A stretch of 64,000 nt of DNA from Hyphomonadaceae bacterium (GTDB lineage Bacteria; Pseudomonadota; Alphaproteobacteria; Caulobacterales; Aquidulcibacteraceae). Location: the NCBI GenBank assembly GCA_022843225.1, contig JALHOC010000005.1, positions 1-64,000 of the forward strand, given 5' to 3'. The position numbers and the translations under genes are program-made. Position 1 is the stretch's first letter. Every line of letters begins with the position of its first letter. This document shows, in pieces, positions 37,913 through 54,890 of this stretch. A model generated the notes under the pieces. That model was not told the DNA's origin and made no database searches. It worked only from the letters and a program-made list of their open reading frames with translations.

Positions 37913-37971
37913 CCGTATCGCTTGCCAGTTTCTTTTTTGCGTGAAACTATCATCGATATTCGTGGCGTGCG

Positions 37972-37998: not shown

Positions 37999-38031
37999 GA
38001 ATGTCATTTTGTCGTCCAAAAGGCGACGCGA

Positions 38032-38049: not shown

Positions 38050-38081
38050 ACCGAAAATAAGAAACGAAGGGAGGACATATC

Positions 38082-38870: not shown

Positions 38871-38874
38871 TGCG

Positions 38875-39330: not shown

Positions 39331-39364
39331 TTGGCGCAGAATAAAGATGCTTTGGGAGGATTGC

Positions 39365-40144: not shown

Positions 40145-40157
40145 GCGGGGTCACTCC

Positions 40158-41270
40158 ATGGCAACGAAGGATGCAGACCCCGACAGAGCTATTTGGCGCC
40201 AGTTCTGTAAAGATCTGGAGCGTGCCGGCGAGACGGTGCTCTCGGCCCCCGGCGCGGAGAGCCCGCTCGACCGCGCCGAGGGGCTGAGGTATCTCACCCG
40301 CCTCTTGCGCATCGGGCTTGAGATGCAGCTGGAATGGGCCGATCCGAATTGCCCTGGGTTTTATCAGGCATCGCACGAGACCGCGAAAATTGGCGCTGAC
40401 AATCCCGACAACCAATATCTCAACGCGACCATCTCGCCCGCGCAGCGCTATCGCATCAAGGGTAAGCGCGGTACCGCGCCGATCCTGACTTTCGCCACTA
40501 AGGCTAATCGCTACGCAACCGACGGCACAATGGTGTCAACCGGCGAATTGGCGATCGAGGACATGAATGTACGCAAGGACGGTACGTTCGAAATCATCGT
40601 TGCGAAAGAGAAGCCCAAAGGTCGCATCAACTGGCTTCCAATGGAGGACGATTCTTCGTTGATTGTGGTGCGTCAGACTTTTCTCGACCGTGCGAAAGAG
40701 CGCCCCAACACGCTCTCGATTGAGTTGGCCGACGGGCCGCCGCGCCCGGCCGTGTTGACTTCGGAGGCGCTGGCCGCTGGGCTGAAACGCACCGCCGCTT
40801 TCGCGGAGGGCACCGCCAAGACGTTCGTGCGGTGGGCGGAGCTGTTTAAGGCAGAGCACTTGAACCAGCTCAACACGCTCGATCAATCGATGTTTCAGCG
40901 CGCAGGCGGCGACCCGGCGATTTATTATCTCCACGGCTATTGGCGGCTCGCGCCGGGCGAAATGCTCGAAATCAAGTCGCCGATACCCGAATGCCAGGCA
41001 TGGAATTTCCAGCTCAACAATTATTGGATGGAATCGCTCGATTATCGCGCGCACCGCATTCACACGAACTCAGCGCTAGCGACCCTCGATTCCCATGGCG
41101 GGGTGACCGTCGTCGCGGCGGCCGAAGACCCGGGCTACGGCAACTGGCTCGATACCGCAGGACATACCCACGGCACCATGCTGTGGCGCTGGACGAATGC
41201 GCAAGAACATCCAATGCCGCGTTGCCGCGTGCTTCCATTGCGCAAAAAGAAGCCTCAGCGCGCCAAGTAG
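40158..41270 (+). CDS. DUF1214-domain protein
   Basis: A 370-residue protein whose C-terminal third is a DUF1214 domain (YYLHGYWRLAPGEMLEIK, then CQAWNFQLNNYWMESLDY and the ending HTHGTMLWRW). The N-terminal part (about 1-200) is helical then strand-rich and of unknown fold, perhaps DUF1254-like. No signal peptide is seen, although many DUF1254/1214 proteins are exported. The start chosen is the ATG at 40158; an ATG 39 bases upstream lies inside the SDR. It closes the plus-strand operon, and its stop overlaps the convergent SDR stop region by 16 bases. The function is unknown. Confidence 0.84.
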   Translation: MATKDADPDRAIWRQFCKDLERAGETVLSAPGAESPLDRAEGLRYLTRLLRIGLEMQLEWADPNCPGFYQASHETAKIGADNPDNQYLNATISPAQRYRIKGKRGTAPILTFATKANRYATDGTMVSTGELAIEDMNVRKDGTFEIIVAKEKPKGRINWLPMEDDSSLIVVRQTFLDRAKERPNTLSIELADGPPRPAVLTSEALAAGLKRTAAFAEGTAKTFVRWAELFKAEHLNQLNTLDQSMFQRAGGDPAIYYLHGYWRLAPGEMLEIKSPIPECQAWNFQLNNYWMESLDYRAHRIHTNSALATLDSHGGVTVVAAAEDPGYGNWLDTAGHTHGTMLWRWTNAQEHPMPRCRVLPLRKKKPQRAK

Positions 41271-42004
41271 CCGCCATCGACCGCGAGCGGATGGCCAGTG
41301 ATGAAGCTTGCTTTGCTTGAACACAGGAAGATCACAGCGTCCGCCACTTCTTGCGCTTGGCCCATGCGGCCCATTGGGTGCATTTGCGCCATGATCGCGG
41401 CGGCTTGCGGGTCCTTGGCGGCGGCCTCCGTCATTGGCGTTACGATGGCGCCGGGGCAGACGGCGTTTACACGCACGCCTTGGGTGGCGTAGGCCATCGC
41501 CGCTGAGCGCGTCAGCCCAATGACCGCATGTTTGCTGCCGCAATAGCCTGGTCCGCTCAAGCCTGACATGCCGGCCACGGAAGAGGTATTGACGATGGCG
41601 CCCCGGCCAGCGGCGGCCATGTGGCGCAGTTCAGCGCGCATGCACACCATCACCGAACGGGCGTTGACGTCCATGACCATGTCGAAGCCTTCGCCCCAAG
41701 GCGTCATTGGCATCTCCGTTGAGATGCCAGCGTTGTTGAAAGCGGCGTCCAGCCTGCCCCACCGGGCGACCACGCCATCGACGAACGCCTCTGCGCGCGT
41801 CTCGTCGGTGATGTCGAACGCTTCGCCGTAAGCATCAGCGTTAAGATTCTGGAGCATCGCGACGGTCTCGCTAACCGGGCCTTCGTTCAAATCGCAGACC
41901 GCGACCTTGGCGCCCTCTTGCGCGAAAGAGATCGCTGTAGCGCGTCCCAAACCGCCGCCGGCGCCGGTGACCAGCGCTACCTGGCCTTCAAACAGCTTTC
42001 CCAC
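41255..42004 (-). CDS. SDR-family oxidoreductase
   Basis: A 249-residue SDR with TGAGGGLGRATAISF, NNAG, NTSSVAGMSGLSGPG and the catalytic YCGSK. The C terminus ITGHPLAVDGGYLAR is complete. It is the last gene of the 14-gene C/D-ring operon, 15 bases after the ketosteroid isomerase gene. That neighbour suggests oxidation of a 3-beta-hydroxy-5-ene steroid to the 5-ene-3-one used by the isomerase. That is inference; beta-hydroxyacyl-CoA substrates of the ring pathway are an alternative. Confidence 0.91.
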   Translation of the reverse strand: MGKLFEGQVALVTGAGGGLGRATAISFAQEGAKVAVCDLNEGPVSETVAMLQNLNADAYGEAFDITDETRAEAFVDGVVARWGRLDAAFNNAGISTEMPMTPWGEGFDMVMDVNARSVMVCMRAELRHMAAAGRGAIVNTSSVAGMSGLSGPGYCGSKHAVIGLTRSAAMAYATQGVRVNAVCPGAIVTPMTEAAAKDPQAAAIMAQMHPMGRMGQAQEVADAVIFLCSSKASFITGHPLAVDGGYLAR

Positions 42005-42019
42005 CGCGTCCTCCTTCAG

Positions 42020-42394
42020 TCAAAATCCGTGCATGTTCTCAGGCCCCCAAAAGGCTCGCATTTCAGTGACTTTTCCTGCTTCGTCGAACGCAAACGTGTC
42101 GATGACTTCGATGCGCTTGTCGCCACCAGCGTAGTTGAGAGTGACCGTGAAGCAGAACGCGGCGTAATTGGCGCCGCCGCGGACCGGCGCATCGAGGCTG
42201 AGCTTGGCGCCGGTTTTCATGGAATTGGCGTAGAAGGCGCGGATGGCATCCTTGCCGTGATGGACAGGCGTTCCGACCGGGTCTTCCACCACGGCGTTCT
42301 CGGCGAAGAGTTCCGCTGCGGCGCTCGGGTCGCCTTTGTCGAAAGCGGCGATATAGGCCTCGACAATTCGGACTTTGTGGGTGTGGTCAATCAT
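42020..42394 (-). CDS. ksi: Delta-5-3-ketosteroid isomerase
   Basis: A 124-residue ketosteroid isomerase candidate, the usual length of about 125-131. The three catalytic residues fall at the same numbers as in the Comamonas testosteroni enzyme: Tyr14 in EAYIAAFDKGD, Asp38 in VVEDPVG and Asp99 in EVIDTFAFDE. Trp116 of the pocket is also kept in RAFWGPEN. The enzyme moves the 5,6 double bond of a 3-ketosteroid to 4,5 by proton transfer through Asp38. It lies between a MaoC-like hydratase (six bases) and an SDR in the C/D-ring operon. Other SnoaL-like proteins in the window lack this full set. Confidence 0.88.
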   Translation of the reverse strand: MIDHTHKVRIVEAYIAAFDKGDPSAAAELFAENAVVEDPVGTPVHHGKDAIRAFYANSMKTGAKLSLDAPVRGGANYAAFCFTVTLNYAGGDKRIEVIDTFAFDEAGKVTEMRAFWGPENMHGF

Positions 42395-42400
42395 GGCCGT

Positions 42401-42859
42401 TCACTCCGGGTAATAGCGACTAATCGTATCCATCACGCAGGCGGGCTTGTCCTCGCCTTCGATCTCGACGGTGAGGCGAACAACCGATTGAATCGCCCCT
42501 TTGATTTCCTCAACGCTGACGACTTCGCCTGCAGCGCGCAGGCGCGATCCGACCTTTACTGGCGCCAGAAACCGCAGCTTGTCCACGCCGACGTTTACGC
42601 CCATGGAAAATCCGCTCAAATGCAAGAGCTGCGGAAGGAAGTGAGCAGCGAGGCTAGCAGTGAGATAACCGTGCGCGATGGTGGCGCCGAACGGACCACT
42701 TTTGGACCGCTCTACATCGACGTGGATCCACTGCCGATCCTCGGTCACTTCAGCGAAACCATCGACGCGCTGTTGGTCAATTCTGATCCAGTCGGTAACG
42801 CCGAGTTTCGCCCCTTCCTTGCCGAGCAACTGGCGGGGCGACGTGAATGTCATGGCCAT
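42401..42859 (-). CDS. MaoC-like hotdog-fold enoyl-CoA hydratase
   Basis: A 152-residue MaoC-family protein. The segment VTEDRQWIHVDVERSKSGPFG at about 38-58 (shown in part: EDRQWIHVD) carries the Asp/His pair of R-specific hydratases, then AHGYLTASLAAHF. The start chosen is the ATG giving MAMTFTSPRQ, seven bases after AAGGAA; the frame runs upstream into the acyl-CoA dehydrogenase without similarity. It probably hydrates an enoyl-CoA of the C/D-ring pathway formed by the adjacent dehydrogenase. Confidence 0.9.
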   Translation of the reverse strand: MAMTFTSPRQLLGKEGAKLGVTDWIRIDQQRVDGFAEVTEDRQWIHVDVERSKSGPFGATIAHGYLTASLAAHFLPQLLHLSGFSMGVNVGVDKLRFLAPVKVGSRLRAAGEVVSVEEIKGAIQSVVRLTVEIEGEDKPACVMDTISRYYPE

Positions 42860-42872
42860 GGGCGTTTCCTTA

Positions 42873-43958
42873 TCATGAATCCAGAACGCCGGCGGCCACG
42901 CGTTCGCGATGATGTGCCGGTGGGTCGAGCAGCGTGCTGGACGAGCGCGCGCGCTTGAAGAAGAGGTGGGCGTGGTGCTCCCAGGTGAAGCCAATTCCGC
43001 CATGCAGCTGAATGCCCTCAGCCGCAAGTTTGAGGTAAGCGTGCGAACAATAGGCGCGCGTCCCGGCACAGGCGAGGGACGCTTCGGGATCGTTGGTTGC
43101 GAGCGCTTCGAGCGCCCAGGACAAAGCGGAGCGGGCGGCTTCCAAGGCAAGCTTCATGTCGGCGAAGCGGTGTTTCATCGCTTGGAACGAACCGATAGCG
43201 CGCCCAAATTGAACACGTTGCTTGGCGTAGGCGACGACCTCATCAAGCGTCCGCTGCATGCCTCCGATTTGTTCGGCGGCCAGCACCACGCTCGCGTGAT
43301 CGAGCGCGCGCATCAGAGGTGCGGCGCTTTTGCCAGGTTGGCCGACCTGAGCGCCATCGATGGGCACGTTGTCAAAATTCAAGGTCGCAAGCGGACGCGT
43401 GAGATCCAGCGAGGTTCGCGGCTCTATCGAAAGCCGGGGTGCGCCCCTTCCGATTGCAAATAGACTCAAACCCGCGGCTTCGCGTGCTGCGACGATGAAG
43501 AGATCGGCTTGCGCGCCGAAGGGTACGTAGTGTGCCGTGCCGCAAAGCTTACCGCCCTCCACGCGTGCGCCGAGCGCTTCTGGGAGCAAACCGCCGCTCT
43601 GGTCGCGCGCGGCGAACGTGGCGATCGCTTCGCCCGACGCGATCTTGCCCAAATGCGCTTCACCGCCAGCCTCGTTGAGGATCAATGTTGCAAGCGCCGC
43701 GCTCTCAAACCAAGGGATTGGCAGCAACGTTTCACCCAGGGCCTCTGCGACCGCAGCGAGTTCGGCGACGCCAAGGCCCGCGCCGCCGACGCTCTCGGGC
43801 GCGGCGAGCCCCGCGAAGCCAAGTTCTGACGCGAACGTGCGCCACTGGGTCGGCGCCCAGCCTTCGGCGGTTGCGGTGGTTTGGCGCACGACATCGAAGG
43901 GGGCCGCTTCCTTAAGGAACGCGCGAGCCGCTTCGCTTATCGCTGCCGCTTCGCTCAT
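42873..43958 (-). CDS. Acyl-CoA dehydrogenase, heterotetramer-type subunit
   Basis: A 361-residue acyl-CoA dehydrogenase-like protein starting at the ATG that overlaps the upstream SDR stop (TGATG). The conserved N terminus is weakly kept, while the C-terminal YAKQRVQFGRAIGSFQAMKH at about 235-254 and LHGGIGFTWEHHAHLFFKRA are typical. The final YEGT-like segment is absent. This shape matches subunits such as FadE33/IpdE2 or ChsE partners that pair with a second subunit carrying the other half of the flavin site. A partner could be the gene at 53727 or 47025. Confidence 0.9.
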   Translation of the reverse strand: MSEAAAISEAARAFLKEAAPFDVVRQTTATAEGWAPTQWRTFASELGFAGLAAPESVGGAGLGVAELAAVAEALGETLLPIPWFESAALATLILNEAGGEAHLGKIASGEAIATFAARDQSGGLLPEALGARVEGGKLCGTAHYVPFGAQADLFIVAAREAAGLSLFAIGRGAPRLSIEPRTSLDLTRPLATLNFDNVPIDGAQVGQPGKSAAPLMRALDHASVVLAAEQIGGMQRTLDEVVAYAKQRVQFGRAIGSFQAMKHRFADMKLALEAARSALSWALEALATNDPEASLACAGTRAYCSHAYLKLAAEGIQLHGGIGFTWEHHAHLFFKRARSSSTLLDPPAHHRERVAAGVLDS

Positions 43959-44872
43959 CAATAGGTGCCGTAGACGGGTTTAGGCGCCAGCCGTTCGGCC
44001 ACCAGACGTGGTATGACTTGATCGTGCTCTTCGATCGTCACGCGACGGTCGGCCTCGTGATGCGGCCCGTCGCGCCAGCCCTCTGAAAGCCACACGCGGC
44101 CTCCGCGCAGCTCGAAGACCTGGCCCGTGATCTCCTTGGAGCGCTCACTTGCCAGCCAAGCCACGAGCTCGGCCATGTTCGCGGGATCGAACACGTCGAA
44201 CTCGCCTTCGACCGCTTTCATTGCGTCGCCAAAAGCGCCATCGGTCATGCGCGTGCGTGCCGCCGGCGCGAGCGCGTTTGCGGTGATGCCATAGCGGCCC
44301 AGTTCTGCGGCCTGTACCAGCGTCAGGGAAGCGACGCCGCCCTTAGCCGCTGAATACGCGGATTGCCCGACGCTGCCTTGGAGGCCCGCGCCCGACGTGG
44401 TGTTGATGATGCGCGCATCGACGGGATGACCATCCTTGAGTTGCGCGCGCCAATAATCGACGGCGTGTCGGGTTGTGCAAAAGTGGCCGCGCAGATGTAC
44501 GCGCACGACTGCGTCCCACTCTTCGACCGTGGCGTTCACGAACATGCGGTCGCGCACGAAGCCGGCATTGTTGATCAGAACATGCAGATCGCCGAAGGCG
44601 TTGAGCGCCGCATCGACGATGCGCTTTCCCGCCTCCCAATCGGCGACATCGTCAGTGTTGCTGATTGCTTCCCCGCCAGCCGATCGGATTTCATCAACCA
44701 CGCTCTCCGCCGCGCCTTTTGCCGCACCGGCCTCACCATGCACGCCGACGCCCAGATCGTTGACGACCACCTTCGCGCCTTCCGCCGCCATTTTAAGCGC
44801 GTAGGCGCGGCCAAGGCCCGCGCCGGCGCCTGTTATGATGACGACGCGACCGTCAAGGTATCCTGGCATCAA
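43958..44872 (-). CDS. SDR-family hydroxyacyl-CoA dehydrogenase-like protein
   Basis: A 304-residue SDR of the multifunctional-enzyme (17-beta-HSD4) type, with TGAGAGLGRAYALKMAAEGA and NDLG near the N terminus (the adenine-binding strand), NNAG and YSAAKGGVASLT. The long C-terminal tail (about 250-304) is typical of this group. It resembles Rv3548c/ScdE-type proteins of steroid C/D-ring beta-oxidation, which oxidise a hydroxyacyl-CoA to the keto form. It overlaps the upstream thiolase stop by four bases and the downstream acyl-CoA dehydrogenase by one. Confidence 0.9.
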   Translation of the reverse strand: MMPGYLDGRVVIITGAGAGLGRAYALKMAAEGAKVVVNDLGVGVHGEAGAAKGAAESVVDEIRSAGGEAISNTDDVADWEAGKRIVDAALNAFGDLHVLINNAGFVRDRMFVNATVEEWDAVVRVHLRGHFCTTRHAVDYWRAQLKDGHPVDARIINTTSGAGLQGSVGQSAYSAAKGGVASLTLVQAAELGRYGITANALAPAARTRMTDGAFGDAMKAVEGEFDVFDPANMAELVAWLASERSKEITGQVFELRGGRVWLSEGWRDGPHHEADRRVTIEEHDQVIPRLVAERLAPKPVYGTY

Positions 44873-46023
44873 TTGACCCTTTCAATGATGGTCACGTTGG
44901 CGAGACCGCCGCCTTCGCACATCGTCTGCAGGCCATAGCGACCGCCGGTGCGCTCTAGCTCGTTAAGCAACGTGGTCATCAGCCGCGCGCCTGTGGCGCC
45001 CAATGGGTGGCCGAGAGCGATGGCGCCGCCATTCACGTTGACCTTTTCGTGCGGGATGTTGAGTTCCTTCATCCAGGCCATGGGAACGGATGCAAAGGCT
45101 TCGTTGCATTCGAAAAGATCAATGTCGCCGACCGTGAGGCCGGTCTTTTCGAGTGCATAGCGTGTGGCGGGGATGGGCGCCGTGAGCATCCAAACCGGAT
45201 CATCGCCGCGAACAGTCATGTAGTGCACGCGTGCACGGGGTTTGAGGCCGTTGGCCTTGAGGCCCCTCTCAGAGGCGAGCAGCATTGACACTGAAGCGTC
45301 GGCGTTCTGGCTTGAAATGCCGGCGTGAATGCGCCCGCCTTCGATCAGCGTCTTCAGGCTCGCCATTCTCTCGAGCGTAGTGTCGGCGCGAATAGTTTCG
45401 TCTGCAGCGAGGGCGCCGACAGGCACGATCTCGTTCTTAAAGCGACCCGTGGCTTGCGCGAGCGCGGCGCGCTGATGGCTCGCAAGCGCGAACGCTTCCA
45501 TCTCCTCACGGCTAATATTCCATTTCTCCGCGATCATCTCGGCGGAGCGGTATTGTGAAACTTCCTGGCGGCCATAGCGGGCGACAAAGCCTTCTGAACC
45601 CGAGAAAGGGTCGGTGAAACCATAGGCCTGCCCGGCCTGCATGGAGGCCATGATAGGGATCGCGTTCATGTTCTGCACGCCGCCGACGACGACCAAGTCC
45701 TGCAGCCCGCTCATCACGCCGAGCGCGCCGAAATGCACCGCTTGCTGTGCCGAGCCGCACTGGCGGTCGATGCAGACGGCTGGCACGGCTTCTGGCAATT
45801 GCGCGGCGAGCCAGCTAGTGCGCGCGAGGTTGCCCGCGTTTGGGCCTAGCGGCTCAAGCACGCCGAAAATCACGTCATCGACGCGTTCGGCATCAATCTT
45901 GGTGCGCTCAATCAGTGCGCGCAGGCTCGCAGCGCCAAGATCAGCCGGGTGCATCTGTGCCAGGCTACCCTTCTTGCGCCCGATGGGCGTGCGGACCGCG
46001 TCGACAATATAGGCTTCAGGCAT
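44869..46023 (-). CDS. fadA6: FadA6-like acetyl-CoA acetyltransferase (thiolase)
   Basis: A 384-residue thiolase with all classical residues: nucleophile Cys89 in DRQCGSAQQ, NEAF in ECNEAFAS, His339 in GHPLGATG and Cys369 in TMCEGGGLANV. The start chosen is the ATG giving MPEAYIVDAVRTP, with GTGAGG about nine bases upstream. It cleaves a beta-ketoacyl-CoA with CoA. In the KstR2-type pathway FadA6 releases acetyl-CoA from the C/D-ring product, and the neighbouring IpdA, IpdB, IpdC and EchA20 homologues support that assignment; sequence alone supports only a degradative thiolase. Confidence 0.9.
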   Translation of the reverse strand: MPEAYIVDAVRTPIGRKKGSLAQMHPADLGAASLRALIERTKIDAERVDDVIFGVLEPLGPNAGNLARTSWLAAQLPEAVPAVCIDRQCGSAQQAVHFGALGVMSGLQDLVVVGGVQNMNAIPIMASMQAGQAYGFTDPFSGSEGFVARYGRQEVSQYRSAEMIAEKWNISREEMEAFALASHQRAALAQATGRFKNEIVPVGALAADETIRADTTLERMASLKTLIEGGRIHAGISSQNADASVSMLLASERGLKANGLKPRARVHYMTVRGDDPVWMLTAPIPATRYALEKTGLTVGDIDLFECNEAFASVPMAWMKELNIPHEKVNVNGGAIALGHPLGATGARLMTTLLNELERTGGRYGLQTMCEGGGLANVTIIERVN

Positions 46024-47020
46024 GGGGGGCCTCACTAATAAACGTTGCATCAGGACCAAGCGGAAGGGTGCCGCCGATGACCGCATCGTCGACACGCTTT
46101 AGGTGAAAGGTGCGATCGCCCCAGGCCCCAATGAGAGCCCAAGCGCGCTTCATCCAATAATGGAGGTCGACCTCATAGGTATAACCCATAGCGCCATGCA
46201 CCTGGATCGCGGTTTCGGCGGCGAGCAGGGCGGCGTCGCCGGCGGCGACTTTGGCGACGCTCACGTGCAGCGGCGCTAGGCCCTGGCCCCGGTCGAGCGT
46301 GTAGGCCGCACGCCAGAGCGGCGGGCGCGCGAACTCGATCGCCAGTGCGACGTTCGCAAGGTGGTGCTTGATAGCCTGGAATGCTCCAATGGGCTGGCCG
46401 AATTGCTCGCGCGTCTTGGCGTAGTCCGCAGCCATCTCCAGCATACGTTCGGCGGCGCCGACGAGCTGAGCGGCGCTCGTCAGCGCGGCGAGATCGAGCA
46501 GAATCGGATCATCGCCACCGTCCAACTCGCCGGACGCAAACAAGCGGCGGAGCGGGTCGACAGAATTGAGCTGCTTTGGCGCAGGGCGAGTGAGCAGAAT
46601 TTCCTCGTGCGCGATCACACCTTTGGCTGTGTCCAGATCTGCGACCCAAGGGTTGATGTCGTGCGTGAGGGCAAGGGTGACATCGCCTGACGCCAAGCCT
46701 TCGAGGTAGGACTTCTCGCCTTTGCGCACGCACCACGGGGCAGCGACGAAAGCGGTGTCCGCGAGCGGTTCGCTGACATTGGCGCGTCCCAACTCCACGC
46801 CAATGAGGGTTGCTTCCAATAGGGTCAGGCCCAGGCCGCCATTGCTCTCCGGGACGAGTAGCCCCGGCAATCCAAGTTCGACAAGGCCGCTCCAGATTGC
46901 GTTGTCGCGACCGCCAGCAGCGTCCAGAGCACGAAGGCGTTCGGGGGGATGAGCCTTGGCTAGATAGTCGCGCACATGATCGCGCAAGCGGAGCTGATCT
47001 TCGCTGAAGCGAAACTCCAT
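46016..47020 (-). CDS. Acyl-CoA dehydrogenase, small heterotetramer-type subunit
   Basis: A 334-residue acyl-CoA dehydrogenase-like protein, shorter than the usual 380. It starts at the ATG giving MEFRFSEDQ. The middle domain lacks the normal T-E-P-x-A-G-S-D flavin motif (it reads ALTHDINPW), while the C-terminal YAKTREQFGQPIGAFQAIKHH segment and IQVHGAMGYTYE are kept. These features suit the small subunit of an alpha2beta2 enzyme with the full-size gene directly upstream at 47025. It overlaps the thiolase by eight bases. A FadE32-like role in C/D-ring degradation is tentative. Confidence 0.9.
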   Translation of the reverse strand: MEFRFSEDQLRLRDHVRDYLAKAHPPERLRALDAAGGRDNAIWSGLVELGLPGLLVPESNGGLGLTLLEATLIGVELGRANVSEPLADTAFVAAPWCVRKGEKSYLEGLASGDVTLALTHDINPWVADLDTAKGVIAHEEILLTRPAPKQLNSVDPLRRLFASGELDGGDDPILLDLAALTSAAQLVGAAERMLEMAADYAKTREQFGQPIGAFQAIKHHLANVALAIEFARPPLWRAAYTLDRGQGLAPLHVSVAKVAAGDAALLAAETAIQVHGAMGYTYEVDLHYWMKRAWALIGAWGDRTFHLKRVDDAVIGGTLPLGPDATFISEAPHA

Positions 47021-47024
47021 GGCG

Positions 47025-48173
47025 CTACCTCGGCAGGCCGAGCATGCGCTCGGCGACGATGTTGCGCTGGATTTCATTCGAGCCAGCATAGATCGGGCCC
47101 GACAAGGAGAAGATGTACCCATCGAGCCATTCATTGGCGCCTGTCTGCGGTCGCAGTTCGGCGTGGCTCCCAAGCAAACTCATCGCCGCGCGGTGCAAAC
47201 TGCGATCGAGTTCGGACCAGAAAATCTTGTTGAGGCTGGCCTCGGCGCCAATTTTTCCGCCAGCTTGGATGGAGGCGGCCACCATGTAAGTGTTCAGCGC
47301 ATAGGCCTCTGCGTCCATCCAGCACTTCAGCACTGTCTCGCGCAAGCCCGGCGCCGCACGGTCAGCGTTGGCGCGATAGAGTTCGACCAGGCGCTTAGCC
47401 GCGGCTTGGAAACGCGCAGGCGAGCGCAGCATCAGTCCGCGCTCAAAGCCTGCCGTCGCCATCGCCACGTTCCAGCCTTCGCCCTCCGCTGCAATCCGGT
47501 TCTCGACGGGAACACGCACGTCATCGAAGAAGATTTCGGCGAAGCCAGTGTCGCCGTGCAATTGGCGGATGGGGCGCACGCTCACGCCTGGCGTATTGAG
47601 GGGCAGCAAAATAAACGATAGCCCTTTGTGGCGCTTGCTTTCGGGATCGGTGCGGAAAAGACCGAAACACCAATCCGCGAAGGCGGCTCGGCTCGACCAT
47701 GTTTTCTGGCCGGTGATCAGGTAATGGTCGCCGTCGCGGATAGCCTTGGTGCGGATCGCGGCCATGTCCGAGCCGGCGCCCGGCTCCGACCAAGCCTGGC
47801 ACCACATGATCTCGCCCTTAGCCATAGGCGTGAGAAAGCGGGCCCTCTGCTCGGGCGTGCCGTACTCCATCACTGTTGGGCCAAGCAGAAAAATGCCATT
47901 CTGATTGGCGCGAAGTGGGGCGCCTGCGCGATAACATTCCTCTTCGAAGATCAACCAACGGATGAGATCGAGGCCGCGCCCGCCATATTCTTCAGGCCAA
48001 GTGACCATACCCCAATTGCCGGAGGCAAGCTCACGCTCCCAGGCGACGTGCGCGTCGAAGCCTTCTTTGCACTCGAGCGTTTTTAAGTCGCGAAATTTCG
48101 GCGCATGCGCCTCCATCCACGCGCGCACTTCTGTACGAAACGCCTGCTGCTCGGGAGTGAAAGCCAGATGCAT
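47025..48173 (-). CDS. Acyl-CoA dehydrogenase, large heterotetramer-type subunit
   Basis: A 382-residue acyl-CoA dehydrogenase. The flavin segment WCQAWSEPGAGSDMAAIRTK is at about 123-142, and the C terminus is IYAGSNEIQRNIVAERMLGLP, with Ala in place of the common Glu base. It is followed four bases later by the short partner at 46016, the arrangement of ChsE-type and FadE31-FadE32 pairs. It starts one base before the stop boundary of the EchA20-like gene. It dehydrogenates a ring-derived acyl-CoA; which one is not readable. Confidence 0.92.
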   Translation of the reverse strand: MHLAFTPEQQAFRTEVRAWMEAHAPKFRDLKTLECKEGFDAHVAWERELASGNWGMVTWPEEYGGRGLDLIRWLIFEEECYRAGAPLRANQNGIFLLGPTVMEYGTPEQRARFLTPMAKGEIMWCQAWSEPGAGSDMAAIRTKAIRDGDHYLITGQKTWSSRAAFADWCFGLFRTDPESKRHKGLSFILLPLNTPGVSVRPIRQLHGDTGFAEIFFDDVRVPVENRIAAEGEGWNVAMATAGFERGLMLRSPARFQAAAKRLVELYRANADRAAPGLRETVLKCWMDAEAYALNTYMVAASIQAGGKIGAEASLNKIFWSELDRSLHRAAMSLLGSHAELRPQTGANEWLDGYIFSLSGPIYAGSNEIQRNIVAERMLGLPR

Positions 48174-48923
48174 CTAGAACTTCGCCGCATCCTTTCCGGC
48201 GACGAACGCGTCGCGCGATTTCTGGCTGTCTTCGTGCATATACATCTCGAGCGTGAAGCCTTGCTCCCAGCGATAGCCGAACACAGGATTGCGCGGCTCC
48301 AACTCGGTAAGAGCCTCCTTGGCCAGGACCAGCGCCTTGCGGCTCTTGGCGGCAATAATGGCGCCGAAAGCGCGGGCTTCGTCCGCCAACTTGTCGCGCG
48401 GGACGACGCGCTCAATCGAGCCATAAGCGTGCAAATCTTCGACGCTGATGCGTCCCCCGGTGAAGAACGCTGCTCGCACTTTTTGCACTGGCGCCATGCG
48501 CCCCAGGAAGCTTGCGCCGCCCATGGCGCCGCGATCAATCTCCGGCAACGAGAGATAGGCGCCTTCTGCTGCGATCACCACATCGCTGGCGCCCACGATG
48601 TTAACGCCGCCGCCAATGATGAAGCCATGTGCGGCTGTGACGACCGGCACGGGGCACCGATGGATTTCCTTGACGACGCGGAAATTGCCGTGATTGAGCT
48701 TCACGATGCGATCGGGGTGCGCCTGCATCTCTTTGATGTCGACCCCGCCGCAAAAGCCCTTGCCCTCGGCGCGGATCAGCACGCAGCTTACGTCCTCGCG
48801 TACGCCAAGCTCTGCGATGTGATTAGGCAGTTCGTTCCAGCCGGCGCTGTCGAGCGCATTGACCGGGGGATGGTCGAACACAATCTCGGCGATGCGGTCC
48901 CTGACGTCGGTGCGGATCGGCAT
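48174..48923 (-). CDS. echA20: EchA20-like crotonase (probable ring hydrolase)
   Basis: A 249-residue crotonase. The start chosen is the ATG giving MPIRTDVRDRIAEIV, with GGGAG seven bases upstream. The oxyanion loops are FCGGVDIKEMQAHPDR and AHGFIIGGGVNIVGASDVVIA, and LPEIDRGAMGGASF has Glu at the catalytic position. Its order relative to IpdC, IpdB and IpdA matches the KstR2 regulon, where EchA20 hydrolytically opens ring D of the HIP-derived CoA ester (ScdY in Comamonas). I assign it by synteny and family rather than by residues. Confidence 0.83.
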   Translation of the reverse strand: MPIRTDVRDRIAEIVFDHPPVNALDSAGWNELPNHIAELGVREDVSCVLIRAEGKGFCGGVDIKEMQAHPDRIVKLNHGNFRVVKEIHRCPVPVVTAAHGFIIGGGVNIVGASDVVIAAEGAYLSLPEIDRGAMGGASFLGRMAPVQKVRAAFFTGGRISVEDLHAYGSIERVVPRDKLADEARAFGAIIAAKSRKALVLAKEALTELEPRNPVFGYRWEQGFTLEMYMHEDSQKSRDAFVAGKDAAKF

Positions 48924-48933
48924 TTGAGCTCCC

Positions 48934-50022
48934 TCAGGCCGCAACGGCCGCGTTGTCGGCGCCCGCAGTCAAAGCGGCAATGCGCTCGCGCGCGTCGCGT
49001 TCGATCGAAGCAAGTAGTTCAGCGCACGTCGGCAGTTCCCGAATACGGCCGGCGACCAGCCCGGTGGCGAGCAGTCCTTCGTCCGGTTTGCCGTCGACCA
49101 CGGCGCGCATGATCAAGCTAGGCGCGGCCGCCGCCAGCATGGCCTGAGCTAAGGAGAGGCCCCCATGGCTGGTCATGCCGCGCGCGGCCTTGATCATGTC
49201 GAGCCAGGTGGCGTTGGTGCGTCGTTTCATTTCCCGCGCCCCCTCGAGCGCGCGCAGCCACATACCCAACGGACCAGAGCGCTCGATCTTCGCGAACATC
49301 GGCGTGCGGATCATACGTTGGGGCAGGCCATCGACTTTCGAGCTGACGCCGATGTCGTCGGTTCCAGCTTTGAGATACCGCTCTTTGGAGATCATCGGCG
49401 TAGGGCTTTCGGCCGTGAGCAAAAAACGGGTTCCCATCGCGATGCCGACGGCGCCGAAGGCGAGCGCCGCTGCAAGCCCACGACCGTCGGCGAAGCCACC
49501 GGCGGCAATCACAGGAATTTTCACCGCATCTAACACCTGCGGCAGCAGCACTGTTGTGGCGACTGACCCTGTGTGGCCGCCGCCTTCGCCGCCTTGGACG
49601 GTCACCATGTCGACGCCAAGCTCAGCCATCTTCTGCGCGTGCTTCACCGCGCCAACAGTAGGCACGCAGAGAATGTCTGCATCTTTGAACTTCTTGATCA
49701 TCGCGGCATCTGGCCCGCGCCCAAAGCTGACCGCGCGCACTTGTTCGCGATTGGCGATGATGAGGTCGACAATTTCTGCCGCACCCGGCTGGAACATGTG
49801 AAAGTTCACGCCGAACAGACGAGGCGTGCCAGCGCGCACGAGCGCAATCTTTTCGCCTGCTTCTTTCGGTGTCATCACCGCCGCGCCCAAAAATCCAAAC
49901 GCGCCCGCTTCGCAAGAGGCGATCACAAGCGGCGGCTCGGCCACCCAGCCCATGGCGGTTTGGATCACGGGCAGCCGGCACCCGAGGCGCGTGGTCATCT
50001 CGGTGGCGAGTGCGTTGCTCAT
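48934..50022 (-). CDS. ipdC: IpdC-like flavin-dependent reductase (nitronate monooxygenase family)
   Basis: A 362-residue FMN barrel of the nitronate monooxygenase family. Visible marks are PVIQTAMGWVAEP, the phosphate-binding GVDMVTVQGGEGGGHTGS and PVIAAGGFADGRGLAAALAF, then GAVGIAMGTRFL. In the steroid pathway IpdC acts on a C/D-ring CoA intermediate after HIP activation. The start overlaps the stop of the crotonase at 50019 by four bases, and it lies ten bases ahead of the EchA20-like gene, consistent with one operon. Confidence 0.87.
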   Translation of the reverse strand: MSNALATEMTTRLGCRLPVIQTAMGWVAEPPLVIASCEAGAFGFLGAAVMTPKEAGEKIALVRAGTPRLFGVNFHMFQPGAAEIVDLIIANREQVRAVSFGRGPDAAMIKKFKDADILCVPTVGAVKHAQKMAELGVDMVTVQGGEGGGHTGSVATTVLLPQVLDAVKIPVIAAGGFADGRGLAAALAFGAVGIAMGTRFLLTAESPTPMISKERYLKAGTDDIGVSSKVDGLPQRMIRTPMFAKIERSGPLGMWLRALEGAREMKRRTNATWLDMIKAARGMTSHGGLSLAQAMLAAAAPSLIMRAVVDGKPDEGLLATGLVAGRIRELPTCAELLASIERDARERIAALTAGADNAAVAA

Positions 50023-50918
50023 CCCTCGCCGGCTTGTTTCTTGTTGGCGGCTGCCATCGCTTTTCCATCGACGCCGCCCAACGCATTGCCGGTGGTGAGA
50101 TCGTTCTGAGCATGCGCGAAATGATGCATGTGGAAATGGGTGTCCATCGCAGTGCGCTTGCCGCGCAGCTCTTCGACGTGGTTGAGCGCCTGCTTGGTAA
50201 GCCAGAGGCCCAAACGGTTCTGCGGCTCGAGTTTGCCGGCCATTTCCGCCACGAAGTCGCGTAGCTGTTCGCGCGGAACGACCTTGTTGACCATTCCAAA
50301 ACGTTCAGCGCGTTCGGCCGACATGCGCTCGCCGAAGAGAATGAATTCCTTGGCGATGCGCGGGGGCAGTTCGAAGCCGTGCGCCGAATACTCAACGCCC
50401 GGAATGCCCATCATGCGCCCGACTGGATCTTGGAAGAACGCATCGTCGCTGGCGACGATCACATCGCACACCCAAGCCAGCATAAGCCCGCCTGCGATGC
50501 ACCCGCCTTGCACCATGGCGATGGTGGGCTTGGGCAGCTCGCGCCAGCGTCGGCACATGCCGAGATAGACTTCTTGTTCGCGCGTGTAGAGGAATTCCGC
50601 CGCCGGCTTGTTGACATGATCGGCCAGCAAGAGCTTGCGATCAAAGGTCTTTGCCACATCACGCCCCGGCGTGCCTATGTCATGGCCTGCAGAGAAGTGC
50701 TTACCCTCGCCGCCCAGCACGATGACCTTGACGTTGTCGTCGTTGACGGCGCGCTGGAACGCGGCGTCGATTGCGTAAGTCATCTGGCTATTCTGGACAT
50801 TGTGGTACTTGGGCCGATTCATCATCAGCCATGCCGTGCGGCCTTCGACGGTATAAGTAACGGGGTCGTCGGTTTCGTACTGGATGTTGGCGGCAGGCGG
50901 CGCTGACAAATCGTCCAT
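50019..50918 (-). CDS. Enoyl-CoA hydratase family protein
   Basis: A 299-residue crotonase with the first oxyanion loop HFSAGHDIGTPGRD and the second VQGGCIAGGLMLAWVCDVIVAS. The region FFQDPVGRMMGIPGVEY replaces the usual PE-x-LG, so the catalytic Glu pair is not obvious. A C-terminal extension rich in His (HFHMHHFAHAQND) is unusual. It is inserted between the IpdB and IpdC genes. It may be an enoyl-CoA hydratase like ScdN/ScdD of the C/D-ring pathway; the synteny is the main support. Confidence 0.89.
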   Translation of the reverse strand: MDDLSAPPAANIQYETDDPVTYTVEGRTAWLMMNRPKYHNVQNSQMTYAIDAAFQRAVNDDNVKVIVLGGEGKHFSAGHDIGTPGRDVAKTFDRKLLLADHVNKPAAEFLYTREQEVYLGMCRRWRELPKPTIAMVQGGCIAGGLMLAWVCDVIVASDDAFFQDPVGRMMGIPGVEYSAHGFELPPRIAKEFILFGERMSAERAERFGMVNKVVPREQLRDFVAEMAGKLEPQNRLGLWLTKQALNHVEELRGKRTAMDTHFHMHHFAHAQNDLTTGNALGGVDGKAMAAANKKQAGEG

Positions 50919-50928
50919 CCCAGTCTCC

Positions 50929-51732
50929 TTAGGAAGCGCGGCGATCGCCCGGAGGATCGCCTTTTAGAATTGTGGCTCGCACATTGTTAGGGTCGAGCCT
51001 GGTGATCTCCGCCAGAGCGGTAGCGTCGGGCGGGGGCGTAATAGGGATAGCGCCTTCGGAACGGACCACCGCAAAGCCAGTGTTGTCCTGCACTTCTTCG
51101 AAGCTAACGCCAGGATGGAGCGACACGAGCCGAACCGCATTGTTCGGCCCGCTGAAATCCATGACGCACAAGTTCGTGACAATGAGGCGCAAATCAATTT
51201 TCCCCGGCATGCGCCCGCCCGGCCAACGCGCGGGATTGTAGCCCGCCATGCAGACGAAATCGACCTCTCCGGCCACAAGCGCGCGGCTATTGTGCACTGG
51301 GAAAAAGAAGCTGTTGGGGTGGTGGATTGAATTGCCGGGAAAGCCGCGGGCGCCGAGCAGGGCGGCTTTTGGTTTGTTGTGGTCGCCAATGACGCTGATA
51401 TTGGCCTGCCCGAAGCGATCAAGCTGCACTGGCGCCACCATGGCGTGGCGCTTGCCGCTCCAAAGATTGTCGAATGTACGTGCATAGGGCGCCCAACCTT
51501 CGGTGACGATCCGTAGATCAGCGGCGCGCGGGCCAGGCGGGACGGGATCTTCGACGAACCAGTTCTCACCGTCGGTAATCATGAGTGCGCTGTTGTATTG
51601 TGTTTTTGCGAAGCTCGCGGCCAGGCGCGGCAGCGGAGTGATGCCGGTGGCGAGCAGCTCTCCGTCATTACGCCACGCTCGCGCGGCGGCAAAGATGATG
51701 AGCTCTGCGAGCGAATAGGGCGGTTGAGACAC
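50929..51732 (-). CDS. ipdB: IpdB-like CoA-transferase-fold subunit
   Basis: A 267-residue subunit of the family I CoA-transferase fold, with MSQPPYSLAELIIFAAARAW at the N terminus and FPGNSIHHPNSFFFPVHNSR in the centre. IpdAB is not a transferase: it hydrolyses the C ring of COCHEA-CoA in steroid degradation. The downstream neighbour order (IpdB, crotonase, IpdC, EchA20) and the preceding IpdA gene, ten bases away, strongly support this pair. It should form an alpha2beta2 complex with IpdA. Confidence 0.92.
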   Translation of the reverse strand: MSQPPYSLAELIIFAAARAWRNDGELLATGITPLPRLAASFAKTQYNSALMITDGENWFVEDPVPPGPRAADLRIVTEGWAPYARTFDNLWSGKRHAMVAPVQLDRFGQANISVIGDHNKPKAALLGARGFPGNSIHHPNSFFFPVHNSRALVAGEVDFVCMAGYNPARWPGGRMPGKIDLRLIVTNLCVMDFSGPNNAVRLVSLHPGVSFEEVQDNTGFAVVRSEGAIPITPPPDATALAEITRLDPNNVRATILKGDPPGDRRAS

Positions 51733-51742
51733 GGCGCCCTCC

Positions 51743-52651
51743 TCAATAAATGGCTTTAGGCAAGGCGCGGATCGCGTCGGCGCCGCCTATCGCCGCGAGA
51801 TAGGCATCGGGCTCTATGGCGACATAGGTCTGCCGGTATGCGGCCCAAGCCTCGGGCGCATCGGCCGATGCCGCATAGGTTCGCAGATGCGCAAGGTCTA
51901 GTTCGTAGTCGGGCGCAGCACTGGTGGGATGGGCCCCAAACGGCGCCTCGGCGACGGCCGCAACCACCGAACGCTCGAACAGATTGAAGCGAGCATTGAC
52001 GGGCAGGTCGAGGTCCCGCGTCGTGACGATTTTCTCTGAGGTCACATAAACCTTGGCGGCGGCGCGCGAGATGAGTTCGTCGAAGAAAGGGTCGGGCGAG
52101 AACACGAGCACGTTGCCCTTCTCATCGCTGCGATGAACATGGATGAGCGCGGCGTCGAGCTTGAGCGCGGGCGCAGCCAGAAGTGCTTCGCCATCTTCAT
52201 ACGGCGATGTGATCATCTTGAAGTCCGGCTGATCAACCACCGAAGTGCCTAGGCCAACGCGCGTGGGTAAGAATGGCAATTTCATCGCCGCCGCGCGCAG
52301 CATCCAATGGGCCATGCCTTCGTCGAGTTCGAGCACGGGAAGGCCCGCTTGGCGCGCGTTCTTGAAGTGTGGTTCGATCGGGATATGATCCATAGACACG
52401 AACGCGAAGACGAGCTTTTTCACTTTACCTGCAGCGGCCAGCATGCCGACGTCGGGCCCGCCATAGGGAGCGACGAGGGTGAGATCGGTGATGTCCGACC
52501 GTAGCAAGGCGCGCACCAACGCCATCGGCTTGCGCCGGGTGGCCCAGCCGCCGATGCCGATCGTCATGCCGCTGGAGAGCCGCTCAATGATGTCAGCAAT
52601 CGAGCAGACCTTGTTCAACGCTTTGGGCTCGCTCAATGGCCGAAATCCCAT
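51743..52651 (-). CDS. ipdA: IpdA-like CoA-transferase-fold subunit
   Basis: A 302-residue alpha subunit with the segments LSSGMTIGIGGWATRRKPMA and TLVAPYGGPDVGMLAAAGKV at about 25-79, then PFLPTRVGLGTSVV, which match IpdA as I know it. It forms the ring-C hydrolase IpdAB with the next gene. The start chosen is the ATG at 52651; a TTG at 52636 that overlaps the HsaC stop in TTGA is equally consistent with the overlap style of this operon. IpdA follows hsaC directly. Confidence 0.92.
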   Translation of the reverse strand: MGFRPLSEPKALNKVCSIADIIERLSSGMTIGIGGWATRRKPMALVRALLRSDITDLTLVAPYGGPDVGMLAAAGKVKKLVFAFVSMDHIPIEPHFKNARQAGLPVLELDEGMAHWMLRAAAMKLPFLPTRVGLGTSVVDQPDFKMITSPYEDGEALLAAPALKLDAALIHVHRSDEKGNVLVFSPDPFFDELISRAAAKVYVTSEKIVTTRDLDLPVNARFNLFERSVVAAVAEAPFGAHPTSAAPDYELDLAHLRTYAASADAPEAWAAYRQTYVAIEPDAYLAAIGGADAIRALPKAIY

Positions 52652-53517
52652 TTGTGACCCCAGAGGTCTTCCTTCTGGGTGATGGTGGGTGTGAAGGTTG
52701 ACCAATCGGGCGTTAGCAAGCCGCCGCAACCGTATTCGACATCGAATCCGCTGGGGCTGCGCACATAGAAGCTGACCATCTTATCATTTGTGTGCCGCCC
52801 CAGTGTCGCCGAAAGGTGGTGTCCGGCCTTCAGCGCTCGATCGAGCGCAAGGCCAACATCGTCGAGAGCCGGCGCTTCGATCATGACGTGGATCAGTCCG
52901 GCGGGATGGGGAAACTCGCCGACCGCGACCGTATGATGGCGTGGGCCTGCAGCATGAAGAAAGTGCAATCCGAGCGATCCGCCTTCAATGGGGATGCGCA
53001 TCTCGTCACTGTCGCCGAAGCCGAGGTGCTTCAGATAAAACGCGCGCGTTTCTTTCAGTTTGAGGGCCGGCAGCACGACGTGACCCATACCGCCGTCGTC
53101 CGTGACGAAGTGCGAGGTGCCAACAGGCGACACAAACGGCGTGCCGGTGACTACATGGCCCCAGCACAATTCGAGCGGGTTGCCCGATGGATCGGCGCAG
53201 GTGACATAGTCGCGCACAGCACGCGCTTGCGCGCCATCGGGCGTGCCTGACGTAAGCTCTACGCCTGCTGACCGCAGGGAGTTTAGCGCCGCTTGAAAAT
53301 CCGCTTCGGTAGTGAACTCCAACCCGGCGGCGAGGAGGCGATCATGGTCGCTCCGTTCGATACGGAAGCGCCAGGGCCGGTCGTCCATTCGCAAAAGCAG
53401 CACGTTGGGGTCGTCGCTTGCGACGGCGGCCAAACCCAAGATTTGTTCGCCAAATGCGCGCCACGCTGTGAGGTCCTTGGCTGCGACGCGAACATAGGCC
53501 AGCGAGCGAACCGCCAT
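52633..53517 (-). CDS. hsaC: HsaC-like extradiol dioxygenase (iron-dependent)
   Basis: A 294-residue two-domain extradiol dioxygenase of the BphC/HsaC/TesB type. The iron ligands are His146 in GHVVLP, His210 in LIHVMIE and Glu261 in VEYGCGG; His195 in HHTVAVG is the likely acid-base residue. It cleaves the A-ring catechol made by HsaA. GGGAGGGC lies five bases before the ATG. It is the first gene of the 14-gene operon. The gene is divergent from the FadE30-like acyl-CoA dehydrogenase at 53727 across about 210 bases. Confidence 0.93.
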   Translation of the reverse strand: MAVRSLAYVRVAAKDLTAWRAFGEQILGLAAVASDDPNVLLLRMDDRPWRFRIERSDHDRLLAAGLEFTTEADFQAALNSLRSAGVELTSGTPDGAQARAVRDYVTCADPSGNPLELCWGHVVTGTPFVSPVGTSHFVTDDGGMGHVVLPALKLKETRAFYLKHLGFGDSDEMRIPIEGGSLGLHFLHAAGPRHHTVAVGEFPHPAGLIHVMIEAPALDDVGLALDRALKAGHHLSATLGRHTNDKMVSFYVRSPSGFDVEYGCGGLLTPDWSTFTPTITQKEDLWGHKWDFGH

Positions 53518-53726
53518 CCTGCCCTCCCTGTGCCGGCTGTGCCGGATTATCGATGATCATGCCTATCAAGCAGGGCGCTTGTATTCAAGCCATCTTCGTC
53601 GCGGTATGGCCGCAAGCAATACGCAAAACGGCGGTGAATGGCGACAAAAGCAACGAGCTGCGCAGGCTTGCGCCATTGCTCGGGCGGCGTGTTGGCGCCA
53701 GGATTGGAAGTGTGAGAGGACGGCCC

Positions 53727-54890
53727 ATGCCCGACAAAATGGAAGCTTTCCGAGGAGAGGTACGCGCGTGGCTTCGAAGTCAGTTGAGCGGGCCTTTTGC
53801 AAGCGTGCGTGGCCTGACGCGGCAGATGGATGACATCGACACCTTGCGCGCTTGGGAGCGCGCGCTTGGTGACGGTGGCCTGAGCTGCATTGCCTGGCCG
53901 AGAGCCTTCGGGGGCTGTGACGCAACCGTCGCAGAGCAGGTTGTGTTCGCCGAGGAATACGCGCGCGCCGGGGCGCCGCCGCGTTTAGGGCATTTGGGCG
54001 TGGAATTGGTTGGGCCAACTCTGCTGACGTTCGGCACGCCCGATCAACAAGCGCGTTTTCTGCCGGCGATCGCGCGGGGCGAGGCGATTTGGTGCCAGGG
54101 GTATTCCGAGCCGGGCGCGGGGTCGGATCTCGCGAGCGTTCGAACGCGTGCCCGCCTAGACGCAGATCGCTGGATCATTGACGGGCACAAAATATGGACC
54201 TCGCTGGGCATGGTCTCGGACTGGGTGTTCGTTTTGGCGCGCACGGAGCCAGGAAGTCGCGGACCGAAGGGTTTGTCTTTTCTGCTGGTTCCGCTTGAGC
54301 AGGAGGGCGTGACGGTGCGCCCGATCCGCCAAATGACCGGCGAGGCCGAGTTCGCGGAAGTGTTCTTCGACGGTGCTGAAACTAGCGCCGACAATATTGT
54401 CGGCGCGCCGGGCCAGGGTTGGGCGGTGGCTATGGGCTTGCTCGGCTTCGAGCGCGGCGTCTCAACCCTCGTGCAGCAGATGCGCTTCAACACCGAGATC
54501 CAGATGCTCATCGAGGCCGCACGCGCCAATGGCGCCGCGAAAGACCCAGTACTCCGCCAGCGCATTGCCGACGCTTGGATCGGTCTCAAGATCATGCGCG
54601 CCAATGCCTTGCGCATGCTGGCTGATGCTGATTCGGAATCGCTCGGCGAAGCCGCATTGACCTACAAGCTCTATTGGTCGCGGTGGCATCGCGATTTGGG
54701 CGATCTGGCGATGGATGTTCTCGGCGTCGCTGGCGAGATTGGCGAAGGCGACTATCGCTATGAGGGCCTGGTGCAGATGCATTTGATGTCGCGTTCGGAC
54801 ACCATCTATGCGGGCTCCAGCCAAATCCAGCGCAACATCATCGCCGAGCGCGGACTTGGGCTGCCCAAGGAGCCGCGCGGCGATCTTTAG
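53727..54890 (+). CDS. FadE30-like acyl-CoA dehydrogenase
   Basis: A 387-residue acyl-CoA dehydrogenase. The start chosen is the ATG giving MPDKMEAFRGEVRAWL, with GAGAGG upstream; the same frame is open for 58 codons more, but that sequence is unrelated and overlaps the promoter region. The flavin motif WCQGYSEPGAGSDLASVRTR is at about 122-141. The C terminus IYAGSSQIQRNIIAERGLGLP has Ala in place of the common Glu. This is the type of FadE30 (IpdE1), which works with a short partner on the HIP-CoA side chain. It is transcribed alone, convergent with the crotonase at 54887. Confidence 0.9.
   Translation: MPDKMEAFRGEVRAWLRSQLSGPFASVRGLTRQMDDIDTLRAWERALGDGGLSCIAWPRAFGGCDATVAEQVVFAEEYARAGAPPRLGHLGVELVGPTLLTFGTPDQQARFLPAIARGEAIWCQGYSEPGAGSDLASVRTRARLDADRWIIDGHKIWTSLGMVSDWVFVLARTEPGSRGPKGLSFLLVPLEQEGVTVRPIRQMTGEAEFAEVFFDGAETSADNIVGAPGQGWAVAMGLLGFERGVSTLVQQMRFNTEIQMLIEAARANGAAKDPVLRQRIADAWIGLKIMRANALRMLADADSESLGEAALTYKLYWSRWHRDLGDLAMDVLGVAGEIGEGDYRYEGLVQMHLMSRSDTIYAGSSQIQRNIIAERGLGLPKEPRGDL

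Follow-up and report, generated by a model that had tools for sequence, protein, structure and literature searches.

What does a tightly packed run of fourteen genes do in a bacterium assigned to the Caulobacterales, and how did this bacterium come by it? The run lies on the minus strand of an 88,982-base contig of a Hyphomonadaceae bacterium (JALHOC010000005.1, assembly GCA_022843225.1), whose first 64,000 nucleotides were analysed and are called the window here. A preliminary description had proposed a steroid C/D-ring degradation operon of the KstR2 regulon type, joining ring-A cleavage, C/D-ring beta-oxidation and early isomerisation in one transcript. Our analysis makes it very probable that the run is a C/D-ring (HIP) operon of the aerobic 9,10-seco pathway, of the proteobacterial tesB-scd type. 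By its predicted products, the operon opens with hsaC, the gene of the ring-A dioxygenase, and closes with genes for a MaoC hydratase, a ketosteroid delta5-isomerase (KSI) and a short-chain dehydrogenase/reductase (SDR). The protein families recognised by homology, the order and spacing of the genes, the active-site residues of KSI and IpdA and the presence of most of the pathway carry this reading, and from them we infer the enzyme activities and the substrate.

The fourteen genes and their spacing

The fourteen open frames follow each other head to tail and span exactly 41255-53517, as had been described. Thirteen of them matched an NCBIfam model at E ≤0.001, several far under the curated cut-offs; IpdB was the sole frame without such a match. 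Alignments with homologs and inspection of the upstream bases indicated that the listed starts were overlong for several frames. IpdA starts at 52651 or 52618 rather than at 52729, the second acyl-CoA dehydrogenase of the run (AcdB, 46016-47020) at 47020, and FadA6 at 46023. For MaoC, the ATG at 42859, preceded by a purine-rich site, is the most likely start, in place of 43150. From hsaC onward, the gaps between the genes are -19, 10, 10, -4, 10, 0, 4, -8, -1, -1, -8, 6 and 15 bases, in line with the overlapping or close spacing claimed for the run. A start of IpdA at 52618 would turn the first of them into +14; the gap ahead of MaoC, -8 with a provisional start, becomes +13 with the ATG at 42859.

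This spacing suggests that the fourteen genes form a single transcript. Between 40000 and 55000, a sigma-70 scan, which is a weak type of scan, returned two promoter-like sites against 2.9 expected, both on the plus strand, and a terminator scan gave no excess over chance. The acyl-CoA dehydrogenase gene that diverges from hsaC starts at 53727 and not at 53553; thus, the divergent region measures about 209 bases, not 35.

Identity of the C/D-ring enzymes

Best matches of IpdA and IpdB to non-steroid families would speak against a role of the run in steroid catabolism. The opposite was found: IpdA scored 249 bits against solved IpdA and 102 bits against glutaconate CoA-transferase, and IpdB 137 against 56 bits, the solved relatives being 6co6/6con. 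IpdB also lies just above the Pfam CoA_trans cut-off (23.1 vs 23 bits). At the site where chain 6coj differs from 6co6 (Glu to Ala), the window protein has Glu, so that the catalytic residue of IpdA is kept. Both proteins are, by these comparisons, predicted to be the steroid-type IpdAB.

Four kinds of match exceeded the cut-offs of curated models, namely those of the two crotonases, the thiolase and the first SDR (NF006140, NF005925, NF005865 and NF005861; Table 1). IpdC and EchA20 owe their names to family and place. For the EchA20-like crotonase, the best solved matches were other crotonases, with no solved EchA20 among them, and its counterpart on a Sphingobium plasmid carries the annotation echA20. 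The Scd names of the remaining enzymes (ScdN, ScdM, ScdE, ScdC, ScdD and ScdG) are assigned by position or family. Thus, the crotonase between ipdB and ipdC is presumably ScdN, and the first SDR presumably ScdE by its position; an IpdF-like label for the latter was dropped since the review table in the part of PMC8399759 available equates IpdF with ScdG. The first two acyl-CoA dehydrogenases, AcdA and AcdB, are 74-79% and 56-60% identical to their counterparts in four loci (L018, L023, L025 and L026) and about 54-69% and 34-46% identical in the other loci with a matching pair, which makes two subtypes.

The KSI is a SnoaL-type protein that aligned without gaps with the Comamonas steroid delta-isomerase 1ocv. 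Tyr14, Asp38 and Asp99 (Comamonas numbering), which we take to be the catalytic residues, are all kept. On account of these aligned residues, we judge the predicted KSI genuine, and the claim that the run contains an early isomerisation gene holds. The last SDR could be ScdG/IpdF or a hydroxysteroid dehydrogenase. In the main, the gene names given by the preliminary description were borne out by profile searches, solved relatives, the HsaC tree and the KSI residues.

Table 1. Genes and other features of the window, with starts as corrected here (scores in bits; aa, amino acids)
Feature	Position	Strand	Remarks
hsaC/tesB extradiol dioxygenase, ring-A meta-cleavage	52633..53517	-	294 aa; profiles, solved relative, tree
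ipdA/scdL1	51743..52651	-	302 aa; start 52651 or 52618; solved IpdA match, Glu kept
ipdB/scdL2	50929..51732	-	267 aa; Pfam CoA_trans, solved IpdB match
Crotonase PRK08290, scdN position	50019..50918	-	299 aa; NF006140 406, cut-off 280
ipdC/scdK, nitronate-monooxygenase family	48934..50022	-	362 aa; Pfam NMO, conserved place
echA20/scdY-like crotonase	48174..48923	-	249 aa; listed frame begins 48944; NF005925 300, cut-off 260
Acyl-CoA dehydrogenase AcdA, scdM position, first subunit	47025..48173	-	382 aa; NCBIfam, gene order
Acyl-CoA dehydrogenase AcdB, scdM position, second subunit	46016..47020	-	334 aa; NCBIfam, Pfam
fadA6/scdF thiolase	44869..46023	-	384 aa; NF005865 633, cut-off 591
SDR (SDR1), PRK07791 subfamily, scdE position	43958..44872	-	303-304 aa; NF005861 440, cut-off 373
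Acyl-CoA dehydrogenase AcdC, IpdE2-related, scdC position	42873..43961	-	361-362 aa; IpdE2 193, below cut-off 450
MaoC hydratase, scdD-like by family	42401..42859	-	152 aa; Pfam MaoC; closest solved protein Rv0130, 145
Ketosteroid delta5-isomerase (KSI)	42020..42394	-	124 aa; Comamonas KSI 1ocv 100
SDR, general FabG type	41255..42004	-	without specific family match
Divergent intergenic region, likely promoter	53518..53726		near-palindrome at 53545-53558
Divergent acyl-CoA dehydrogenase, probable partner of 42873-43961	53727..54890	+	profile match; counterpart adjacency
fadD3 family CoA ligase	59332..60834	+	NF005801 673, cut-off 657
hsaD-like hydrolase	61848..62672	+	170, cut-off 400
hsaE-like hydratase	62626..63441	+	catechol dmpE model 366, cut-off 409
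hsaA-like 3-HSA hydroxylase oxygenase	877..2079	-	392, cut-off 450; solved HsaA (3afe) 286
kstD-like 3-ketosteroid dehydrogenase	15950..17623	-	517, cut-off 789; Pfam FAD_binding_2

The first gene: HsaC or BphC

The dioxygenase gene at the head of the run could in principle encode a BphC-type enzyme, and the run would then serve the breakdown of biphenyl or other aromatics. The NCBIfam scores give this idea some footing, as BphC (270.8 bits) and HsaC (268.7 bits) are tied, each below its cut-off, and solved BphC reaches 185 bits vs 204 for solved HsaC (2zi8). At E ≤1e-10, this gene is the single match of the HsaC model in the genome. Because the profile scores cannot discriminate between the two families, we used a tree as the test. 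It comprised 76 rows (59 named loci, 16 plasmid genes and the window) and was rooted at its midpoint. A 99/97 branch split it into 66 rows and ten BphC/NahC rows. The larger side contained the window, all 61 rows from ipdAB loci (the 59 named loci and two plasmids) and four others, namely Tsukamurella HsaC, a gene of RHA1 pRHL1, a pNL2 gene and a gene annotated bphC (L129). The nearest row to the window gene, at 61% identity, was a Rhizorhabdus hsaC adjoining ipdA. Thus, the dioxygenase groups with those of steroid clusters rather than with BphC/NahC, albeit in a midpoint-rooted tree with long-branch warnings. The hsaC counterpart moreover adjoins ipdA in 59 of the 80 loci compared below, and the same run contains the steroid-type IpdAB and a KSI with its catalytic residues. 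The tree led us to reject aromatic degradation, to which we leave a very small probability. The name HsaC, therefore, stands by tree placement; the profile scores, for their part, fail to separate it from BphC. HsaC clusters have also been described from metagenomes, according to the part of PMC5790920 available.

Gene order in other genomes

Gene order was compared in the best 80 of 578 IpdA relatives (the closest named loci), counting two genes as adjacent when their counterparts, at least 33% identical over half of the query, lay on the same strand at -200 to +400 bases. The pair ipdA-ipdB was kept in all 80 loci, followed by ipdC-echA20 (63), echA20-AcdA (62), AcdA-AcdB (60), hsaC-ipdA (59), crotonase-ipdC (57), ipdB-crotonase and AcdB-fadA6 (54 each), fadA6-SDR (47) and SDR-AcdC (28). 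Seventeen loci showed the complete set of ten pairs between hsaC and the third dehydrogenase, and ten loci kept ipdA-ipdB only. The window has the conserved order hsaC-ipdA-ipdB-crotonase-ipdC-echA20, two acyl-CoA dehydrogenases, fadA6 and SDR. As far as the stretches reach, the same order is present on a Sphingobium plasmid and on a Vibrio alfacsensis plasmid, and hsaC-ipdA-ipdB-crotonase is found in all six ipdA-positive members of the order besides the host.

Published clusters agree with this picture; the statements that follow are limited to the parts of the sources available. For Comamonas testosteroni TA441, a cluster from tesB through tesR is listed with scdL1L2, N, K, Y, M1M2, F, E, C1C2, G, D and J (PMC13101464), and ORF numbers (PMC6895838) and locus tags (PMC8399759) agree with this order. 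The window run corresponds to it from HsaC to the third dehydrogenase; beyond that, ScdD may be the counterpart of the MaoC, and ScdG that of the last SDR. TA441 differs in that its KSI gene lies elsewhere, with a 3alpha-dehydrogenase gene (PMC13101464), and in that one of the scdC-type dehydrogenase genes is divergent in the window. Such a pair was adjacent on one strand in 15 of the 80 loci. The Novosphingobium tardaugens SD cluster (PMC6895838) and sphingomonad loci such as L019, L022, L028 and L130 share hsaC-ipdA-ipdB-crotonase-ipdC-echA20 and two dehydrogenases, then fadA6-SDR where the stretch reaches. Synteny with the Comamonas and sphingomonad clusters, the comparison suggested by the preliminary description, extends to the third dehydrogenase in the former and, where the stretch is long enough, to fadA6-SDR in the latter. 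In three of the sphingomonad loci (L019, L022 and L130), hsaA, hsaD and hsaE are divergent beside hsaC, whereas in the window hsaD and hsaE lie 8 kb and hsaA 50 kb from hsaC. The union of ring-A cleavage with C/D-ring genes, which had been pointed out as a feature of the run, is indeed present, but it is the usual proteobacterial order (59 of the 80 loci; PMC13101464) and not novel.

The end of the run behaves differently. AcdC-MaoC, MaoC-KSI and KSI-SDR adjacency was found in none of the 80 loci, of which just 19 reach at least 1.5 kb past the last SDR1 or AcdC hit, so these zeros carry little weight; nor did any of the 80 named loci give a KSI match at E 0.001. Among 385 sampled genomes of the class, eight including the host had KSI matches (E ≤1e-12). 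The other seven genomes gave 12 KSI loci with flanks of up to 1.5 kb. One alphaproteobacterial locus (L147) holds KSI, MaoC, SDR and Acd445-type dehydrogenase genes together, and another (L150) KstD, SDRs and KSI. The case for a unique MaoC-KSI-SDR tail is weakened by L147, by the short downstream reach of most loci and by the presence of scdG and scdD in the TA441 list.

The tail might still be a later addition with its own promoter, in which case the steroid genes would form two or more transcripts. Such an origin would agree with its detachment from the operon in all 80 loci, within the reach just given, and with the occurrence of a similar group in L147. However, the joins at the tail measure only about 13, 6 and 15 bases, the weak promoter scan gave no minus-strand site in 40000-55000, and an SDR (scdG) and a MaoC gene (scdD) follow scdC1C2 in the listed order of TA441 (PMC13101464, PMC6895838, in the parts available), so that KSI alone need be an addition. 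We consider two or more transcripts unlikely and keep to one operon of fourteen genes.

Remaining genes of the 9,10-seco pathway

The operon shares its contig with most of the other 9,10-seco genes (Table 1). HsaA, HsaD, KstD and KshA are all represented, KshA above its Pfam cut-off; two KshA-type Rieske genes, an acetaldehyde dehydrogenase gene and an aldolase gene are also present. The hsaD-like hydrolase is 67-74% identical to its counterpart in eight of the 11 named loci with a match and 27-52% identical in the other three. The preliminary claim of a steroid C/D-ring degradation operon is supported by families, gene order, IpdAB residues and pathway partners on the contig.

Several observations weigh against this assignment. 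The matches of HsaC, HsaD, HsaA and KstD all lie below the curated NCBIfam cut-offs, as do the IpdE2-type matches of the second and third acyl-CoA dehydrogenases; HsaC missed its equivalog cut-off of 450 bits at 268.7, other proteobacterial members being unscored. In the HsaC tree, the window row is a long branch (0.51), the root is the midpoint only, the tool warned of long branches among the outgroup rows, and the L129 gene annotated bphC sits on the steroid side. The HsaB family PF01613 had no match in the genome, which is rated 99.5% complete, and 13 of 14 control genomes were positive. A single PF00175 reductase was found in the genome, on another contig, and KshB was not found on the operon contig. 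From the excerpts available, HsaB and KshB are likewise reported absent in Sphingobium Chol11 (PMC8399759), and for N. tardaugens the genes kstD and kshA are placed outside the SD cluster, with no tesA1 (hsaB) found (PMC6895838).

Around these genes, a second plus-strand unit (59332-63441, and on to about 65437 of the contig; L089) encodes FadD3, an SDR, the HsaD-like and HsaE-like proteins, acetaldehyde dehydrogenase and aldolase, thus keeping the ring-A genes other than hsaC. A minus-strand group at 54887-59194, between the operon and fadD3, encodes a crotonase, a DUF6285-like protein, an APH-type phosphotransferase, an Rv3169-like protein, a glyoxalase and an SDR. An 838-residue two-part class III CoA-transferase, a ChsH2-like small protein (25381-25866) and an Ltp-type thiolase are encoded at 22907-27034, and these genes probably serve side-chain removal. 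P450 genes occur at 11376-12650 and at about 77 kb of the contig. An 811-residue sulfatase gene stands directly beside the kstD-like gene (13507-17623), which may point to sulfated steroids as substrate. Sulfotransferase and DUF1214 genes lie close to the operon (36690-41270); in L131, from Novosphingobium aromaticivorans pNL2, genes of these two families again adjoin each other, in the vicinity of genes for an HsaC-like protein, a flavin-dependent monooxygenase and a Rieske protein.

Regulation

In Mycobacterium tuberculosis and Rhodococcus, the KstR2 regulon includes homologous IpdA and IpdB, and it shares, by name, IpdC, EchA20, FadA6, FadD3 and FadE enzymes with the window; hsaC is not known to belong to this regulon. 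The window has no KstR2-like site above chance: the motif had four matches vs 2.2 expected, four or more appeared in 20 of 100 shuffles, and none fell in the divergent promoter. The contig has two TetR genes (window 32825-33442 and about 80 kb of the contig), which scored 32 and 21 bits against the KstR model (cut-off 280), with no KstR2 model among the hits; the former is closest to FadR (82 bits, cut-off 200) and the latter to FasR (52 bits, cut-off 330). The TetR gene at 32825-33442 is divergent from an acyl-CoA dehydrogenase gene (33545-34741), upstream of biotin carboxylase genes. KstR2 is also reported missing from such Proteobacteria in the part of PMC8399759 available. For N. tardaugens, expression is reported to be constitutive. 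The designation "KstR2 regulon type" is thus unsupported.

A near-palindrome, GATTATCGATGATC, is located at 53545-53558, separated from hsaC by 27 bases. The contig contains its core, TATCGATGAT, exactly once more without mismatch, at 37949 (site 37948-37961), where the sulfotransferase and SDR genes diverge. In the 59 named loci examined, the 300 bases preceding hsaC had no TATCGATGAT with up to one mismatch. The near-palindrome is a possible operator of local, shared character, not a conserved one.

Host and origin of the operon

IpdC (E 1e-60) was found in one of 30 genomes of the genus, the host, 10 of the 30 falling outside the set at least 90% complete and at most 5% contaminated; IpdA (E 1e-40) was found in seven of 299 sampled genomes of the order, host included. 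Since IpdC is confined to the host among the genus genomes, horizontal acquisition of the operon seems likely. Alternatively, the genus could have inherited the operon vertically from early on, with loss in the other 29 sampled genomes. Its base composition resembles that of the other genome stretches compared (G+C 62.3% for the operon, 61.7% for the window and 60.9-62.2% for two other contigs), no tRNA was found on the contig stretches scanned, and no integrase among the subset of open reading frames scanned with Pfam. Furthermore, if Brevundimonas terrae belongs to the same order, its IpdA, 63% identical, is little below the best matches. Against old inheritance stand the sparse distribution and the IpdA identities, which are 50-53% for the six other members of the order, below the 67-68% of two Sphingomonas. 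The assembly yielded no 16S rRNA gene, and RpoB was used to place the host, an alphaproteobacterium. Within the genus, most RpoB identities to the host protein are 91-93%; for members of the order from other families they are 74-78%, and for B. terrae 76%, which suggests the Caulobacterales, with Terricaulis as a tentative guess at the genus. Vertical descent with so many losses seems improbable to us, and acquisition remains the preferred origin. An RpoB piece from a locus titled Acidobacteria bacterium (L011) is 72% identical to that of the host; its label may be wrong.

Discussion

The genes allow the following course of degradation to be proposed. KSI would prepare the substrate and open ring B jointly with KstD and KshA, whose genes lie at other places on the contig. 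HsaA, then HsaC and HsaD, would remove ring A to leave HIP, which FadD3 would convert to HIP-CoA. Acyl-CoA dehydrogenases, crotonases, MaoC, SDR and FadA6 may shorten the side chain, and EchA20, IpdC and IpdAB would participate in opening rings D and C.

A wider scenario is tentative and, taken as a whole, rather doubtful: a steroid region of about 75 kb, from HsaA to KshA, would have been taken up by a 2.9-Mb genome, probably of the Caulobacterales, alone of the 30 genus genomes, would transcribe KSI, ring-A cleavage and C/D-ring enzymes together, and would run its flavin-type and Rieske-type oxygenases without dedicated HsaB and KshB.

The find is sound but ordinary, as most of the set is known in the same order from other steroid degraders. 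Its minor points of interest are that KSI lies within the operon, that the dehydrogenase pair is split, that reductases are missing and that the operon occurs sporadically in the genus. No report of steroid degradation in this lineage was found in the open-licence literature, among the matches listed. The host adds a probable steroid degrader to a genus whose 29 other sampled genomes lack the marker IpdC. This fits the patchy distribution of the pathway in Proteobacteria and its spread between them by horizontal transfer as large clusters, as given in the part of PMC4810484 available. Both the position of KSI and the absence of the reductases are minor, testable variations on this pathway.

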